Source: Brachybacterium sp. Z12
GTDB taxonomy: Bacteria > Actinomycetota > Actinomycetes > Actinomycetales > Dermabacteraceae
Direction: 5' to 3'
Length of the DNA stretch: 64,000 bases
Assembly (NCBI RefSeq): GCF_014400405.1
Contig: NZ_CP060496.1
Location: 2,790,001 to 2,854,000 of the forward strand
Part shown: one piece after another, positions 23,236 to 31,987 of the stretch
Numbering within the stretch: position 1 is the stretch's first letter
Layout: every line of letters starts with the position of its first letter
Notes under the pieces: model-generated
Told to the model about the DNA's origin: nothing
The model's database searches: none
Seen by the model: the letters and a program-made list of their open reading frames with translations, nothing else
Translations under genes and position numbers: made by a program

Positions 23236-24065
23236 TCAGGTGAGGTCGGCGGGATCGACGAGGAAGCCCTCGAGGTCCACGATGTAGCCGCCGACGCTCT
23301 CGGTGAGCAAGCCGGCGATCAGACCGATCCGCTGGTAGGCGAGCTGCCAGCGCTCGGCGGTCTCCGTCGAGGGGACTTCGATCGCGTCTTCCTCCGGGTC
23401 GGCCGTCAGGTGCACCAACTGATAGTCGACGGCGCCCTCGACCCAGTCCAGCGCGGACAGCGCAGCGGGGCGGGAGCTGAGCCCCACCCGCAGGGAGATC
23501 TCCTCCCCTCCGGCAGCGGGATGGTGGCGCTGTATCCGGTGCGGGTGGCCTCCTCCGGCACCTGGTCGAGCTCAGCGTCGGGCTCGAGCGGGGCGAGCAG
23601 CTGGGCGAGCGACTCGGGGGCCAGCGCATGCGGGCTGACGACCGTCAGGTCGCGCACCTGGAAGGGGTGCGGCTCCAGACGGACGCCCGCATCGGTGACG
23701 ACCGCCCCGTAGAGCCGTCGGCCCAGCGACCACGCAAGATCCAGGGCCTCGCGTTCGACGCCGAAGGGGATCCCCTCGGGGAATGCCCGACCGTAGCCGT
23801 GGGAGTCGCCCATCCCCTCGGGCAGGGGCACCTCCCGCTCCCGCGGGGTGTCCATGGTCCAGCGTCCTGCGCCGCGCGGCGAATGATCCGGCTCCAGGCG
23901 CACCTGATCGCTGAGCTCGATCGTGCCGTCCTCGCCGACGGTCGCCTCGGGGCGCACGTTGCGCACCATCGACAGTACGTCCTGCGGGTCGGTGTCGCGG
24001 GGCAGCTGCAGGCGGTGACGGGTGCGGGGCTCTTCGCCGGCCGACGACGGGACCGTGACGGTCAC
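23236..24065 (-). CDS. Conserved hypothetical protein coupled to dcd (one frameshift)
   Basis: A soluble protein of about 276 residues that I cannot assign. It starts at the GTG at 24065, overlapping the stop of dcd by four bases (GTGA). It breaks in the C-run 23515-23518; reading on gives [21 protein letters not shown] and ends [19 protein letters not shown]. No signal peptide, membrane segment or metal motif is seen. The tail half (residues 60-275) alternates short beta-like stretches, for example [21 protein letters not shown]. Coupling to dCTP deaminase suggests a nucleotide-related or housekeeping job, but that is inference only. Confidence 0.65.
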
Positions 24066-24654
24066 TGCTTCTCCTCCACGGGGATGCGGGTGCGATGGAA
24101 GTTCTGCGAGGAGCGGGACGGGGTCGGTCCGCGCTGCCCGAGGTAGCGGTTGAGGTTCCCGGCGCTGCCGTACGGGCGTTCGGAGGCGCTCGAGAGCCGG
24201 AAGAAGCACAGCTGCCCGATCTTCATGCCGGGCCACAGCGCCACCGGCAAGGTGGCCATGTTGGAGAGCTCGAGGGTGATGTGTCCCTGGAAGCCGGGGT
24301 CGATGAAGCCGGCCGTCGAGTGGGTCAGCAGGCCCAGGCGACCGAGCGAACTCTTGCCCTCGAGGCGGGCGGCGACGTCATCCGGCAGGGTGATCTGCTC
24401 ATAGGTCGAGGCGAGCACGAACTCCCCGGATGCAGCATGTACGCCTCGTCCGGGTCGACGGCGATCTCGCGGGTGAGGTCGGCCTGTTCGCGGGAGGGGT
24501 CGATCATCGCGTGCTTGTGGTTGTCGAAGAGCCGGAAGAACCGGTCGATGCGCACGTCCACGGAGGCGGGCTGGATCATCTCCTCGTCGAAGGGGTCCAG
24601 GCGCACTCGCCCGGCATCGATCTCGGCCCGGATGTCACGATCGCTCAGCAGCAC
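24062..24654 (-). CDS. dcd: dCTP deaminase (one frameshift)
   Basis: Deaminates dCTP toward dUMP/dUTP for thymidylate synthesis; about 198 residues. The start GTG gives [17 protein letters not shown], the family N-terminus. The motif [12 protein letters not shown] is intact. The frame breaks in the C-run 24424-24427; reading on gives [20 protein letters not shown], then [20 protein letters not shown] with the catalytic region and [13 protein letters not shown]. The C-terminal loop [17 protein letters not shown] matches the mycobacterial bifunctional DCD-DUT type, though I cannot decide whether this one also hydrolyses dUTP. It is coupled to the unknown gene downstream. Confidence 0.93.
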
Positions 24655-25145: not shown

Positions 25146-25720
25146 ATGCCCAAGATCATCGGAGGTTCCCTCGAGGAGCATCGCGAGCGCACGCGCGAGA
25201 AAATCTTCGCCGCCCTCGCCGAACTGCTCGAGACCCAGCCGTTCGAGTCGGTCACGTTCTCACGGATCGCCTCGGCGGCCGGCGTGGGCCGCACCGCGAT
25301 GTACAACCACTTCCCCGACCGCGAGACCCTCCTGGTCGAGTATGCGATCCACGAGACGACGGACTACATCTCCCAGCTGCGCGCCGGGGTCAGCGATTCC
25401 GCCACCCCGCGCGACGCCGTGATCGCCTACATCCACACGCAGCTGGACCTCAACGTCTCCTTCCACGTCCCGCAGACCTCCGGCGGCGCGACGCTCTCCC
25501 CGAGACGGCTGCACGCATGCGCGACCACGTAGTGCTCATCGAGGACGTGCTGCGCACGATCGTCGCCGACGGAGTCACCAGCGGCGACTTCGCCGCCGAC
25601 CTCGACGTGGATGCCACCGTGCGCATCATCAACGGCCTGCTGGTGGGATCCTCCGCGAAGCGCTACTCCCGCGAGGCCCTGGAAGGCTTCGTGCTCAGAG
25701 GACTGGGCGCCCGCGCCTGA
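25146..25720 (+). CDS. TetR family transcriptional regulator (one frameshift)
   Basis: A TetR-type repressor of about 191 residues. The HTH is FSRIASAAGVGRTAMYNHFPDRETLL near residues 37-63 and the C-terminal domain is ligand-binding. A one-base loss in the C-run 25498-25501 shifts the frame after GGATLSP; the next frame gives ETAARMRDHVVLIEDVLRTI and IINGLLVGSSAKRYSREALE, the usual end of the family. It points toward the membrane-pyrophosphatase-like gene, with a strong hairpin between. A target cannot be named. Confidence 0.85.
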
Positions 25721-25832: not shown

Positions 25833-28324
25833 TCAGTCGTCCTGCTCCGAGGTTTTCTTCTCTGACTTCTCAGCGCGGCGCTTCCTGCGCCGATCGCCCT
25901 TCGGCGCCTGGACGGGGACGGAGACCTGCTCGACGTTCTCGTCGTCGACCTCCCAGTCCATCGCATCCAGGCCCTCGTCAGTGCTCTCCTCGGCCCGGGC
26001 GAACAGGGGCCGAGCGATCTCGCCCTCACCGTCCTCCAGGTCCACCTCGGGCGCGGTCGCGGCGACCACCCAGCAGGTCAGCGCGATGATCAGGGCGAGC
26101 ACGGCGATGCCCCAGCGCAGGAAGGCGCTGGTGCCGTCGGTGTTCATCCCCACCACGGCGCTGACGGCCAAGGCGCTGAGCAGCGAGCTCGTCAGCAAGC
26201 AGGGGGAGCGCGACGGAACCGATCGCGGCTCGCAGGATGGCGGTCAGCACGGCGCCGCCGAGGGCACCGGAGTGACCCCAGGAGCTGCGGCCGCCGTAAC
26301 GGCCCGAGCCGATCACGGCGGCGGCGTTCTCGAGGGTCGAGGCTGAGCCGAGCATCCACAGGCCCAGGCCCGCTGCGGTGAGCACCACGCCCACCACCAG
26401 GCCCGGCAGCGCACCGGGACCGAGGCCGAAACCGGCCACCACCGGCATCAGCACGGCGAGCACCACGGAGGGCACGGAGGCGCGCCGCACCATCTCGGGG
26501 AGCTCGACCAGGTCGGTGTGCGGCCGTCCCTCGAGCAGCGAGGCGCGGGTCTCCACCACGGCGCTCGCACCGAGCTGGCGGGCACCGTCCAGCAGCGAGG
26601 AGGTCACCAGCAGCACCGTGATCACTCCCAGGCCGACGCCGCCCAGCAGCGTGAGGGAGGTGGGGGTCACCGCGTGCAGGGCACGGTCCTCCCAGACGGT
26701 CCCCGCACGGGGGCCAGCTGGAGGGCGGTGCCGATCGGTCCGAGCGTGCCGAGGGCGGTGAGGGCGCCGGCCAGCAGGAGCGCGGCGCGGGGGCCGTGCG
26801 CCGCGCCCGCCGCGGCATTGCGCATCCCGGTCTCGGCCTCGGGGCCGTCGGCGAGCGTCGAGGCCATCAGCGAGCCGGCATGCGCCGCCACCACGATCAG
26901 CGCCCCGAGCCCGGCATAGGTCAGCAGCGCGAGCGCGAGGGACGGCACCCCGGCGGAGAGCACCGCGATGACCGTGGAGATCAGCACCAGCAGGGACACG
27001 ACGCCCGCGGCAGTCAGCGCGGTCGAGCCCAGACCTGCGGTGAGGCCGAGAGCGCCGCCGGTGCGGCTGGTGCGGGCGGCCCGCAGGACCGTGCCGCCGA
27101 AGCGGTGGCCGGTGCCTCCGAGCAGCAGCACCGCGCCGAGCGCGGCGAGGACACCGAGGCCGAGGGTGCCCGCGACCACCACGTTCGGGGTGAGCGAGTA
27201 GAGGGTCAGCATGTCCAGGAAGGCGCTGGCGTACTGGGACTCGTCGGACTGCGAGACCCACTGCCCCATATCGGTCAGCGCCTGCTCGATCTGCGGCTCG
27301 AGCTGCTCGCGCGGGGTGGGTGTGCCGCCCGTGATCGCGGGGTCGGTGAAGTTCTCCTGCCCCACGTCCTCGAAGCGGAGGTTCTTGTAGAGCGAGGGGA
27401 TCCACAGCGCGGAGGCGGCGACCGCCCCGGCGCCTCCCAGCACCGAGGGGATCAGTCCCCCAGCCGCAGCGCGCCGCGCTCGTGGCCGGCCCGGCCCCGA
27501 TGCGGCACCACTGCGGTCACGGCAGCGGCCAGCATCGCCGTGCCCAGCCCCAGGAGCACCACGATGAAGCCCTCTGCAGCGAACACGGGCACACCCAGCA
27601 GCACCCCGACGCCGGTCGCGGCGGTGGCCAGGGCCACCAGATCGGCGCTGAGCGCGCCGCCGCGCCGGAACATGCGTGCGCTGCGCAGATGCGGCCCGCC
27701 GAGGTTCGCGGGATCGTCGGCGTCGAGATCGTGCTCGTCGGAGCCGACCAGGAACGCGGAGGCCGAGGCCGAGGCCTCGAACGGCGCGGCGGAGACCCGG
27801 ATCGCCAGCGCGGAGATCGCGGCGCCCGCGGCCAGGGCCATCAGCGCCGGACCGGCGGAGGCCTGCAGGAACCACACGATGATGACGACGGGGAGGATCG
27901 CCAGCGCGAGCGAGCCAGTGACGGCGAGTGCGCCGACCCGCGGGATCAGGTTCGCACGCCGCTCCGGGTCCAGTCCGAGGACCGCCAGCTGCACGGCGAG
28001 GCCGCGCCAGGCCGCGAGCGGGCCCAGCGCGATGCCGACCAGCAGCAGCGCCGAGCGCAGGATCCTGTCATCGGTGGTGCCGGGTGCGAGGTACAGCAGC
28101 ACCGCGACCGGCAGGCCCACCCACAGCATGAGCGATCCGGAGGAGAGCAGCTGCGCGCCGAGTCGGCGGCCGAGGCCCTCCTCGACCTCCGCGCTGTCCT
28201 CGTCGCGCTGCAGGCGGCTGGGGACGACGGCCCCGACGACGAGCGCCGTGATCGCGAGCGCGCCGAGCACCAGCAGGGTGACGGCGAGGTCGTCGCCGAG
28301 GGGGAATTGCGTGATCAGATCCAC
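25833..28324 (-). CDS. Membrane-bound pyrophosphatase-like protein lacking catalytic motifs (three frameshifts)
   Basis: A 16-segment-like membrane protein of about 830 residues, repaired at 27457-27461, 26701-26704 and 26202-26206. I align it to H+/Na+-pumping pyrophosphatases (HppA family) along its length: AAISALAIRVSAAPFEASA (residues 169-187) sits where the family has GGGIYTKAADVGADLVGK, DADDPANLGG (201-210) where it has EDDPRNP, ALGLTAGLGSTALT where it has IIAGLAVGMESTALP, and VLMPVVAGFGLGPGALPGL and SSWGHSGALGGAVLT where it has GDTVGDPFKDTSGP. The fold matches but nearly all the Asp, Lys and Asn residues that bind PPi and Mg2+ are gone; only DDP remains. Hence it is probably not a pump. 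The C-terminus adds an acidic then basic tail of about 65 residues. The family motifs are quoted from memory. Confidence 0.75.
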
Positions 28325-28432: not shown

Positions 28433-30452
28433 TCAGGCCAGCAGCGAGAGGTCGAGGTGATCCGGGCCGCCCTCGACGACCTGGATCGGGACCCCCAGTC
28501 CTGCTGGTGCATGTGGCAGGCGGGGAATTCGATCGAGGGATCAGCGTCGCAGGAGGCGGCGCGGGCGCTGACGTGCAGGACGCCCTCGGTGTAGGCCGGG
28601 TCCAGCTCGAGCGTGCGCTCCAGGGCGGTGTCCACACCGCTCCCGGAGGTCAGCATCGAGGTCGGCGTGGTCGAGATGGTGACCTGGGTCGAGGGGCCGA
28701 GGGAGTCGTCGAGCTTGTGCCCGGGCGGCGGGGTGAACAGCACGCGCACGGTCAGCGGGCCGGGGCCCACCTCGGTGACGGGCCGCTCGGAGCGCTGGGC
28801 GCCGTGGTCGATCATGCGTTCGGCGGCCTTGGCGACCGGCACCCAGGTGATGCGGTGGGTGCCGGACTCGACGACGATCAGCTGCCCGATGCCGTCGATG
28901 GGTGGGCCGACGATCGCGTCCGAGGGCTCCTTGAGGTCGGTCGCGACGGTGACCACGTGTGCCTGGCCGGGAGCGGCCCCGTCGGCTCCCTCGGTGCCCG
29001 AGGTGCTCGGCTGGTCCGCGAGACCGATCACCCCGCTGAGGGCGGTGATGCCGCCGGTGGTGACGCGTTCCCCGTCGGTCGCGGGCGCCTCGACGATCCG
29101 GATCGCGCCGTTGTAGGTGTCCGACACGGCGATGCGGCCGTCGGGCAGCGCTGTCACGCCGAGCGGGTGCTGGAGGCGGGCGGTGTCGGCGGGGCCGTCC
29201 ACGTGCCCGAAGTCGAACAGGCCCTGCCCCACCAGGGTGCTCACGCGCATGGTGTGCGGGTCGAGCACGCGGATCGCGGAGGTCTCGGAGTCGGCGATGA
29301 CGATGCGGCCGTCGGGCAGCTCGTCGAGGCCGGAGGGCTGGGCCCACCAGGAGGTGACCGCAGGGCCGTCTACCAGGCCCTCCTGGGTGGTGCCCGCGAG
29401 CACCATCAGCGCCCCGCTCACCGGGTCGAAGGTCCACAGCTGGTGGACGCCCGCCATCGCGATCACGGCACGGTTCAGCACCTGGGACCAGGTCAGGTCC
29501 CAGGGGTGGACAGCGAATAGTCGCGCGCATCGCCCTCGCCGCGGGGCAGCGGCTCGCCCTGCATCCACTGCGCACCGGTGCCCGCGACCGTGATCGCCTC
29601 GGTCGCGGTGCGGGAGCGCAGCAGACGGTCCTGGCCGATCTTCACACCGCGCAGGCGATGGTTGGCGGTGTCGGCGACCAGCAGGTCGTAACCGACCTCG
29701 GCCGCGACCTGGTCAGGCAGCGCGAGGACGCCGTTGGGCTCGGCGAACTGTGCGGTCTCCTCATCGCCGTCGGCGTGGCCGCGCGCACCGGTGCCGATGA
29801 TCGCGTCGACCGTCACGCCGTCGTTCTGGAAGACCACCAGGCGGTGCTGGCCGGCGTCGGAGATCACCAGGCGGCCGTCGGGGAGGACCGTGAGCTTCGA
29901 GGGGAAGCGGAGGGTCTGCGGGGTGCGCTCGGTGAGCACGGTGGGTGCGGGGCCGCGGCGCAGGGAGCCATCGGCCTCGCCCTCGGCCACGAGCTGTTCG
30001 ACGAGCCGGTCGATATTGGCGGCGTGCCCTTCCCCGGAGAGGTTGCCGGCGATGCGGCCGTGGGTGTCCAGCACCATCAGGGTGGGCCAGGCGCGGGCGC
30101 CGTACGCGGTCCATGTCTCGAGCTCCGGGTCGTCGATCACCGGATGGCTGACCTCATAGCGCTCGATATTGGCGGCCAGCGCCTCCGGGTCCTTCTCGAA
30201 CTCGAACTTCGGCGAGTGGACACCGATGACCACCAGCTCCTGCTCCCACTTCTCCTCGAGCGGCCGCAGCTCGTCGAGGACATGGAGGCAGTTCACGCAG
30301 CAGAAGGTCCAGAAGTCGAGCAGGACGATCTTCCCTCGCAGCGACTCGAGGTCGAGCTCTGCGCCTCCGGTGTTCAGCCAGCCGCGCCCGCGCAGGGCGG
30401 AGCCGTGGGCGCGGGCGGTCAGGGGCGCGGAAGGATCGGACGATGTGCTCAT
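28433..30452 (-). CDS. NHL-repeat thioredoxin-like protein, NHLRC2-like (two frameshifts)
   Basis: About 673 residues, cytoplasmic (no signal peptide). The N-terminal thioredoxin-like domain has the CxxC motif in FWTFCCVNCLHVLDELRPL at residues 47-65. An NHL beta-propeller follows (FPSKLTVLPDGRLVISDAGQ, YDLLVADTANHRLRGVK, ADSETSAIRVLDP), and a beta-rich C-terminal domain ends LEFPACHMH-like IEFPACHMHQQDWG. This is the NHLRC2 layout. One base is lost at 29503-29506 and one at 28492-28496; the protein closes VPIQVVEGGPDHLDLSLLA. It lies 108 bases upstream of the pyrophosphatase-like gene on the same strand, so the two could share a transcript. The enzyme role is unproven for the family. Confidence 0.85.
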
Positions 30453-30525: not shown

Positions 30526-31209
30526 TCACCAGCTGGCGATCCAGGCTTCGAGGTCCGGGTCGGTCAGGGAGGACAGGGCGAGATCGGCCGACGGGGCGGT
30601 GAATCCGGCGGTCGGGACGGCGATCAGGCGCAGGCCCGCGTCGCGGGCGGACTGCGCCCCGGTGCCGGAGTCCTCGAAGGCGAGCACCTCGGAGGGCTCG
30701 GCGCCGAGCGCACGGGCCGCGGCGGCGTACATGTCCGGGGCGGGTTTGGGGCGCTCGACCGTGTCCGAGGCCTCGAGCACCGTGAAGTGCTCGCGCATGC
30801 CTCCGAGGGTCAGCTTGTCCTCGAGGGATTCCAGCCAGGAGTTCGAGGCGCAGCCCAGCGGCACCTTCGCTCCCGTCAGGCGGAGGATCTGTGCGGCGCC
30901 GGGCATCGTGCGGATGCCGGAGCCGAGCTCGGCATCGAACACGCGGTGCAGGTCCGCGAGGATCTCCTGCTCGTCGTGCCCGGAGCGGCGGGCGATCAGC
31001 TCCGCGGCGACCTCGATGGTCGCGCCGTGCAGCACGTCCCCGTCGCCCTCACGCAGCTGGGCGCCGTGCGCGGCGACGACACGGTCCTCGGTGCGCTGCC
31101 ACACGGACTCGGTGTCCAGCAGCAGCCCGTCGCAGTCGAAGACGATGGCGCGCGGGGTCCAGTCGCCGAAGGCTTCAGCGAAGCGGGCCGGGATCGCGGC
31201 CCCCGTCAT
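30526..31209 (-). CDS. HAD family phosphatase, beta-phosphoglucomutase-like (copy 2)
   Basis: A 227-residue HAD hydrolase. The nucleophile motif is IVFDCDGLLLDTESVW near residue 20. The motif 2 serine/threonine follows in GCASNSW, the lysine in RPKPAPDMY and the acidic motif in AFEDSGTGAQSA. The cap domain is the four-helix type of beta-phosphoglucomutase and phosphoglycolate phosphatase-like sugar phosphatases. It starts at the ATG at 31209, overlapping the stop of the upstream copy by four bases. The two copies are clearly paralogous and sit in one operon; the exact sugar phosphate cannot be told. Confidence 0.9.
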   Translation of the reverse strand: MTGAAIPARFAEAFGDWTPRAIVFDCDGLLLDTESVWQRTEDRVVAAHGAQLREGDGDVLHGATIEVAAELIARRSGHDEQEILADLHRVFDAELGSGIRTMPGAAQILRLTGAKVPLGCASNSWLESLEDKLTLGGMREHFTVLEASDTVERPKPAPDMYAAAARALGAEPSEVLAFEDSGTGAQSARDAGLRLIAVPTAGFTAPSADLALSSLTDPDLEAWIASW

Positions 31210-31910
31210 CGACGCGGCTCCCAGCCGGCGATCCACTGGTTCAGCACCGGGTCGGAGAGGGAGACCAGGCGGCGCGGCGAGCGCGGCTCCTGGCCGGGGA
31301 TCGAGGGGACGGCGATCAGCTGCAGACCGGCCGCCAGCGCGGCCTCGGCCCCGGTCTCGGAGTCCTCGAAGCCGAGGCAGTCGGCGGGCTCTGCGCCGAG
31401 CGCACGGGCCGCGGCGAGATACATGTCGGGGGCGGGCTTGGGTGCCGGGACGTCCTCGATCGCGATCGAGGCGTCGATCACCTCGGCGATCCCGAGCTCG
31501 GCGAGCTTGAGGTCCAGCATGTCGCGCGGGGAGTTCGAGGCGACCGCGACCGGGCGCAGCGCGGCCATGGCGCGGAGCACCTCGATCGCGCCCGGCAGCG
31601 GGGTGAGCCGCTCATCGATGTGCTCGCGATGCGCGGCCACCAGCTCCTCGCCCACCCGGTGCGGGTCCTTGCCCACAGCCTCGGCGATCGTCATGACGAC
31701 CACCTCGACGGCGCGCCCGGTGATCGCCCGTCGGGTCTGGGGGTCCAGGGACACCCCGTGCTGGGATAGGTACGAGTCCTGCAGTGCGACCCACTGCCCC
31801 TCGGTGTCCACCAACAGCCCGTCGCAGTCGAAGATCACGGCGCTGGGCGTCCAGTGCGGCGGCCACTGGTCCAGCGGGGAGGAGGGAAGTGCGGCAGGCT
31901 CGGAGGTCAT
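31206..31910 (-). CDS. HAD family phosphatase, beta-phosphoglucomutase-like (copy 1)
   Basis: A 234-residue HAD hydrolase, paralogue of the next gene. The nucleophile motif is VIFDCDGLLVDTEGQWVAL, the motif-2 residue is in AVASNSPRDML, KPAPDMYLAAARALGAEPAD carries motif 3, and GFEDSETGAEAALAAG motif 4. I start at the ATG at 31908-31910; an upstream ATG at 31940 would only add an unconserved segment. The pair probably arose by tandem duplication, as the KPAPDMY...ARALGAEP stretch is nearly identical in both. Confidence 0.9.
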   Translation of the reverse strand: MTSEPAALPSSPLDQWPPHWTPSAVIFDCDGLLVDTEGQWVALQDSYLSQHGVSLDPQTRRAITGRAVEVVVMTIAEAVGKDPHRVGEELVAAHREHIDERLTPLPGAIEVLRAMAALRPVAVASNSPRDMLDLKLAELGIAEVIDASIAIEDVPAPKPAPDMYLAAARALGAEPADCLGFEDSETGAEAALAAGLQLIAVPSIPGQEPRSPRRLVSLSDPVLNQWIAGWEPRR

Positions 31911-31987
31911 GCTGACCAGGGTATCCACTCTCGCCTGCACGAGCGCTCCACGGTCCGCCGCCGCACTCCCCTGCTGTCCCGCGGCTA

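Follow-up and report, generated by a model that had tools for sequence, protein, structure and literature searches.

Membrane pyrophosphatases (mPPases) are primary ion pumps that are defined by their catalytic motifs. Actinobacterial members have 17 transmembrane helices, and mPPases otherwise have 16. An inactive membrane enzyme is known from another family, as iRhoms are inactive rhomboid proteases that serve as regulators (PMC3149277). In the open-access literature that we searched, including term searches of PMC3198990 and PMC10211241, we found no report of an inactive mPPase paralogue.

A second group of proteins relevant to the locus described here is that of NHLRC2 and SOQ1. NHLRC2 homologues occur in animals, plants, and bacteria, share a CC(I/V)NC motif, and are of unknown function (PMC6107167). 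NHLRC2 is essential in mammals, and the human protein has no insulin-reductase activity. The plant protein SOQ1 joins a HAD domain, a transmembrane helix, a thioredoxin-like domain, and NHL domains (PMC6107167). As for the bacterial homologues, the same paper reports no conserved gene neighbours in seven genomes, and one actinobacterium in which a HAD gene stands just before the homologue. In the open-access literature that we searched, we found no account of an NHLRC2/SOQ1 system whose membrane part is a dead mPPase.

Here we describe a gene of Brachybacterium sp. Z12 that touches on both subjects. It occupies positions 25833-28324 of the minus strand of the window, by which we mean the whole stretch of 64,000 nucleotides that was analysed, and we refer to its product as pseudo-mPPase. 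It resembles HppA (PF03030; structures 4AV3 of T. maritima and 4A01 of V. radiata) in its end-to-end homology, its hydropathy, and 92 common conserved columns. It differs from HppA in retaining only 2 of 23 catalytic and gate positions, in an enlarged loop between helices 8 and 9, in a charged tail, and in 44 new polar or aromatic columns. As in SOQ1 and NHLRC2, HAD and thioredoxin-NHL parts occur together, here in adjoining genes, with the membrane part after them. Unlike SOQ1, the parts belong to four separate genes, and the membrane part is a many-helix and almost certainly dead pump rather than a single helix. The gene neighbours are conserved, whereas none were in the seven bacterial genomes treated in PMC6107167. 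As in iRhoms, which act as regulators (PMC3149277), a membrane enzyme fold is apparently retained without catalytic residues, but the fold is another one and the partner of the pseudo-mPPase is only putative. An earlier note on this DNA had proposed the degenerate mPPase fold; what we add to it is the putative operon partner and the motifs that the protein has gained.

State of the gene in Brachybacterium

In the window, the pseudo-mPPase gene is read in four overlapping frame pieces (about 27455-28324, 26709-27470, 26197-26715, and 25833-26207, all on the minus strand), and hence through the three one-base shifts already described in the earlier note, whereas relatives carry intact orthologues in a single frame. 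The four pieces were analysed as they stand, unjoined. By comparison with the genes of congener G002, the window also has its thioredoxin-NHL gene (28492-30452), its TetR gene (25146-25720), and a putative dCTP-deaminase-like gene (24065-24654) in two frames each, and its MFS-like and Cys/Met-metabolism genes in one frame each. The genome assembly consists of a single contig of 3.51 Mb with a completeness of 85.7. Such a completeness in one contig, together with conserved genes that are split beside whole ones, suggests that the assembly is indel-rich. Because the neighbours are broken too while two others are whole, because of this completeness, and because 31 of 38 congeneric genomes have the gene in one frame, the breaks in the window gene are very probably assembly errors.

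The 38 Brachybacterium genomes, including that of the window, carry at least part of the gene in 37 cases. It is full-length and in a single frame of roughly 800-950 codons in 31, broken in three (G000, G022, and G039), and cut at contig ends in another three (G001, G005, and G006). It was not found in G050, where the thioredoxin-NHL gene itself ends at a contig end. In the near-complete genomes G022 (L058/L006) and G039 (L118), the gene lies in two frames.

Homology to membrane pyrophosphatases

The relationship to mPPases is best seen with profiles. Two of the four window pieces matched the Pfam family H_PPase (PF03030), with E-values of 1.9e-4 and 5e-6, both below the cut-off. Scanned singly, 21 of 28 relatives matched PF03030 with an E-value of 0.1 or lower (7.5e-13 for the best of them), and the degenerate gene scored above the curated cut-off in 12 of the 38 genus genomes, in three of them only when neighbouring stretches were added. 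The search thus reaches significance in relatives, while the pieces from the window itself stay below the cut-off. Against the NCBIfam equivalogs of sodium-translocating pyrophosphatase, the two relatives scanned reached 54.8 and 52.7 bits with the best model, far short of its cut-off of 912. Alignment with hhalign of a profile of 28 relatives to one of 16 canonical mPPases gave a probability of 99.9 and an E-value of 1.3e-35 over 681 columns. Among PDB sequences, the pseudo-mPPase profile matched eleven mPPase sequences, one of them 4AV3 of T. maritima (E-value 2.7e-14), and no protein of another kind up to an E-value of 1.

Column hydropathy agreed between pseudo- and canonical mPPases with r 0.835 over 731 common columns, a value equalled by none of 691 circular shifts (maximum 0.316). 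The 92 conserved columns common to both include TSRTG, GFGLG, and GG.GS..H. Run on only seven rows (three intact orthologues and the four window pieces), AlphaFold2 returned a pLDDT of 35.9 and a pTM of 0.29, too low for the model to be of use. By profile and hydropathy, the pseudo-mPPase is a homologue of mPPases across its whole length, and the end-to-end resemblance that had been claimed for it is borne out by the 681 aligned columns.

Loss of the catalytic site

We compared 23 catalytic and gate positions, numbered by the V. radiata mPPase and counted on the alignment. The choice of these positions draws in part on PMC5150537 and PMC9408878 and otherwise on general background on mPPases. 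The window protein retains two of them, namely the equivalents of D269, which is the first D of DDP, and of D507 in the TM11-12 loop, the latter with an uncertain alignment since it adjoins a deletion in that loop. The segments AAISALAIRVSAAPFEASA, HLRSARMF, and SSWGHSGALGGAVLT, which had been named as standing in place of the family motifs, were all found in the in-frame pieces together with DDP. The earlier note gave DDP as what survives of the EDDPRNP motif and did not mention the Asp of the TM11-12 loop. The former TM5-6 catalytic loop (27656-27751, minus strand) now has the pattern LVGxDEHxxxxDDPxNLGxPHLRxARMxRRG, with Leu, Arg, and Arg in place of D279, D283, and D287. The former TM15-16 catalytic loop (26218-26304, minus strand) reads GRYGGxxSWxHSGALGGAVLTxxLR, in which an Arg replaces the canonical Lys at the K730 equivalent.

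The same losses are found throughout the relatives. Among 26 full-length sequences (the 28 aligned relatives minus the truncated L008 and L082), none kept K250, D257, K261, E268, D279, D283, D287, D500, N534, K541, K694, K695, D723, K730, D731, N738, or K742. The gate Glu of TM6 is also absent from all 26, its column being Ala in 25, and the Asn699 column, taken as 16.46, has Asn in none. D507 is kept in 25 and D269 in 17. Across all 28 aligned relatives, scattered remnants are limited to D253 in three, D691 in one, and D727 in one, the same counts as in the full-length set. In the 25 Asp/Lys columns that show no variation among 25 canonical sequences, 99 of the 700 cells are retained by the 28 relatives. 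The equivalents of D279, D283, D287, D723, and D731 and the Lys equivalents of K250, K261, K541, K694, K730, and K742 are missing in 28 of 28, so that the loss is not a local matter of sequencing. By counting, we take D287, D731, and K541 to be the residues D6.43, D16.39, and K12.50; all three are lost. In active mPPases, D6.43 and D16.39 activate the nucleophilic water and K12.50 belongs to the switch (PMC5150537).

From the sequences at hand, the pseudo-mPPase is nearly certainly dead as a PPi-driven pump. An unconventional but still active pyrophosphatase could be imagined from the retained DDP and the one TM11-12 Asp; it is extremely improbable given the loss of the Asp pair that activates the nucleophile (6.43 and 16.39), of K12.50, and of most equivalents of the metal-binding Asp residues, and given a soluble PPase in 37 of the 38 genus genomes, including that of the window. 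Two genomes, G020 and G038, had two soluble pyrophosphatase matches each.

The residues that took over the old site allow for another reading, in which the catalytic cavity has become an Arg-rich and metal-free receptor for an anionic ligand, such as PPi, polyphosphate, a phosphorylated metabolite, or a phospholipid. Arg occupies the D287 equivalent in 24 of 26 relatives, the K730 equivalent in all 26, and the D283 and K541 equivalents in about 70% of them, and two HAD hydrolases are encoded alongside. However, the conservation of the 23 former site columns, taken as a set, does not exceed that of other columns (it was equalled or surpassed in 9300 of 10000 random draws). This speaks against a ligand site having been kept, and we consider such a receptor improbable. 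As far as sequence can tell, the earlier proposal of an mPPase fold without a PPi- and Mg-binding site, turned perhaps into a regulator, scaffold, or carrier, stands. None of the three things that the earlier note had listed as telling against it was found: PF03030 is matched significantly by relatives, the catalytic aspartates are missing in relatives, and the losses are common to them.

Gained residues and remodelled loops

The pseudo-mPPase has also acquired conserved residues of its own. In 80% or more of the 26 relatives, 44 columns share a polar or aromatic residue that is not the majority residue of the canonical proteins; these comprise 16 Arg, 9 Trp, 9 Asp, 6 Glu, 3 Tyr, and 1 His. 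New motifs include WEDR..H in the TM12-13 loop, RY.....W in the TM15-16 loop, and W....Y at the end of TM8. The enlarged TM8-TM9 loop (27213-27395, minus strand) has the pattern PS.Y..LRF ... PR..L.PQI..A..DM..W....DES and is predicted to be extracytoplasmic, its sidedness being read from the canonical topology. The conserved C-terminal tail (25833-26048, minus strand), first acidic and then basic, follows EVDLEDGEGEI..PLF.R..EE...LDAMDWE and is predicted to be cytoplasmic. Canonical topology and a 17th helix would together place the loop outside and the tail inside. The pseudo-mPPase of genus g16 is still more diverged, as L111 and L112 do not have GRYGG..SW.HS and L113 keeps part of it (GRYGGVGSFAEAS).

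These gains bear on the possibility that the mPPase scaffold now serves as a transporter or channel for another solute, its neighbours being merely co-regulated. The many-helix hydropathy pattern is retained, and 31 of the 44 new columns are charged, 11 of them within hydrophobic segments. Yet the other 20 lie outside those segments, to which 63% of the protein belongs; the ion-gate Glu, the 16.46 Asn, and the K541-equivalent Lys are lost; and an energy source is not apparent. We consider this reading fairly unlikely. A thiol relay from the thioredoxin domain to the membrane protein was also considered and is unlikely, since the pseudo-mPPase has no well-conserved cysteine: it has a mean of 1.1 Cys per protein, and the best column, the sole one at half or more, has Cys in 15 of 26.

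Taxonomic range, phylogeny, and selection

Beyond Brachybacterium, the pseudo-mPPase was found in other genera of Dermabacteraceae, namely g16 (4 of 4 genomes), g17 (1 of 1), and g18 (1 of 1). In the profile search, the single genome of g19 (G058) had a canonical mPPase and no pseudo-mPPase, and the two genomes of g20 had neither. In G058 (L116), the canonical frame goes on into an acidic C-terminal extension of low complexity that is roughly 580 residues long. The family-wide profile search missed the gene of G053 (g16), which was seen behind the thioredoxin-NHL gene on reading the locus; we therefore rely on an absence in the search only for genomes whose locus we read (G059 and G060). At the level of the order, a DNA pattern for GRYGGxG[ST]W[GA]H was found in 27 of 396 genomes, all of g1 and g17, and a reversed control in none. 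The pattern misses the window genome, in which the motif reads GRYGGRSSWGHS, one residue different. The eight order-level search matches were all canonical mPPases. A PF03030 scan of 149 Actinomycetota genomes found no other long degenerate mPPase, at a sensitivity that would miss a divergence like that of g16. The sole weak long-frame match among these 149 genomes besides that of the window, a frame of G450 with 20 bits, reads like a methyl-accepting chemotaxis receptor, matches neither profile, and was discarded.

In a FastTree phylogeny of 70 sequences, the 39 pseudo-mPPases formed one clade with a support of 1.0 and a stem of 1.39 substitutions per site. The tree was rooted on L044, and five of the seven outgroup loci fetched were used. 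L044 itself, from G013, is a divergent mPPase that is 32% identical to the reference canonical protein and has the catalytic motifs; we found no usual-type mPPase in that genome. The pseudo-mPPase is an mPPase paralogue that makes up one clade, which in our searches did not extend beyond Dermabacteraceae.

Of the 38 genus genomes, 18 have a canonical-type mPPase, with the divergent one of G013 counted among them. The other 20, including that of the window, have none, and 16 of these are at least 90% complete; all 20 carry a pseudo-mPPase, two as a contig-end part only. This distribution weighs on the idea that the protein is a regulatory or dominant-negative subunit and forms dimers with the canonical enzyme. 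mPPases are homodimeric (PMC5150537), and 17 genus genomes have both genes, but the many genomes in which the pseudo-mPPase has no canonical partner largely refute such a subunit, which we regard as very improbable.

Selection on the gene was estimated from pairs of relatives. Among 11 relatives (55 pairs), the pseudo-mPPase had a median dN/dS of 0.40 and a maximum of 0.48, against a median of 0.20 and a maximum of 0.28 for 10 canonical Brachybacterium sequences (45 pairs). For the six least diverged pairs, the ranges were 0.20-0.29 and 0.12-0.21, respectively. The pseudo-mPPase is thus under purifying selection that is looser than, and about half as strong as, that on the canonical mPPase.

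A decaying pseudogene or an assembly artefact would agree with the four frames in the window, with the broken genes of G022 and G039, and with a dN/dS about twice the canonical one. The intact orthologues refute decay for the family: a single open frame persists in 31 of 38 genus genomes, dN/dS does not exceed 0.48 in any of the 55 pairs, the family has conserved columns of its own, and the window neighbours are broken in the same manner. We give this explanation hardly any credence; the sequences suggest that the pseudo-mPPase is kept and changed, not decaying.

Gene neighbours

Directly upstream of the pseudo-mPPase gene lies a gene of NHLRC2/SOQ1 type with thioredoxin and NHL domains, read in two frames; its span (28492-30452, minus strand) is that of the match to the congeneric protein. 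Its translation contains CCVNC, so that a thioredoxin-like CC(I/V)NC motif is followed by NHL repeats, as is the case for NHLRC2 and SOQ1. Further upstream, on the same strand, are two HAD-family hydrolases, B (30526-31236) and A (31206-31940), both of PF13419. The Pfam names are HAD_2 for both HADs and Thioredoxin_8 and NHL for the middle gene. On the other side, a TetR-family regulator (25146-25720, plus strand, in two frames) is convergent with the pseudo-mPPase gene; it flanks the claimed module without belonging to it, and its family was assigned on the orthologue in L056.

This arrangement is highly consistent. A co-directional thioredoxin-NHL gene stands directly before the pseudo-mPPase gene in 40 of 40 loci read, which represent 39 distinct genomes, as L023 and L123 are the same contig. 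In 39 of these loci, two HAD genes lie upstream of the thioredoxin-NHL gene; L114 has a single one. The gap between the thioredoxin-NHL and pseudo-mPPase genes was measured in 38 loci, which left out the window and L118, where no start could be set, and ranges from -4 to 160 nt. Of the g16 loci, three have a gap of -4 and one has a gap of +4. Meanwhile, both g20 genomes have the order HAD-HAD-thioredoxin/NHL followed by TetR, with the pseudo-mPPase missing between, which indicates that the HAD-thioredoxin-NHL module can do without it. In seven loci from outside these genera (L143-L149), HAD genes were beside the thioredoxin-NHL gene in none.

The conservation of other flanking genes was assessed for the ABC, Cys/Met enzyme, TetR, dCTP-deaminase-like, and MFS-like genes and one long frame. 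L111 keeps none of them, L112 none except for a 27% ABC match, L113 and L115 one each, and L114 four; both L111 and L112 still have the thioredoxin-NHL and HAD genes. As L111-L113 and L115 lose most of the other flanking genes and keep the thioredoxin-NHL gene, the link between pseudo-mPPase and thioredoxin-NHL outlasts general synteny in g16 and g17, and less clearly in g18.

A putative membrane partner for HAD and thioredoxin-NHL proteins

The pseudo-mPPase has lost nearly all catalytic residues, yet the gene is kept, with conserved motifs of its own, beside a thioredoxin-NHL gene; a new role at the membrane is therefore probable. In all likelihood, the protein is functional and neofunctionalised. 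As to the nature of this role, we tentatively favour, at somewhat less than an even chance, a neofunctionalised pseudoenzyme that is the membrane partner of the HAD and thioredoxin-NHL proteins. The partnership is read from gene order, in loci that all come from the descent of one family. Since SOQ1 joins a HAD domain, a transmembrane helix, a thioredoxin-like domain, and NHL domains (PMC6107167), the order HAD-HAD-thioredoxin/NHL-membrane protein looks like a split version of its parts.

As a membrane partner, the multi-helix pseudo-mPPase would serve HAD and thioredoxin-NHL proteins that are apparently cytosolic, much as plant SOQ1 has one transmembrane helix to link its HAD and thioredoxin-NHL domains across a membrane. 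The new conserved extracytoplasmic loops (TM8-9 and TM12-13) may take in a signal or an envelope partner, and the remodelled cytoplasmic loops (TM5-6, 13-14, and 15-16) with the acidic tail may dock the thioredoxin-NHL or HAD proteins. There would be neither PPi hydrolysis nor pumping by the mPPase mechanism. The sides of the membrane assigned to the loops and tail, and with them a protein that senses outside and docks inside, are what the canonical topology would predict.

A more specific and more doubtful proposal is that the dead ion pump is the transmembrane transducer of a bacterial, split system of the SOQ1/NHLRC2 type. The TM8-9 and TM12-13 loops, with their new residues, would receive signals from outside, and the movements that once served pumping, uncoupled from PPi, would control the cytosolic HAD and thioredoxin-NHL proteins. 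As far as our literature searches show, neither a pseudoenzyme in the mPPase family nor a conserved operon of bacteria with an NHLRC2 homologue at its centre has been described before, so that this system, if real, would be the first of each.

These findings have implications for both protein families. They provide a handle on NHLRC2 and SOQ1, as a bacterial homologue consistently adjoins two HAD hydrolases and one membrane protein, and the function of this set is therefore open to simple gene removals. For the mPPases, a clade that is without nearly all catalytic motifs and is nevertheless kept suggests that the mPPase scaffold can serve something else.
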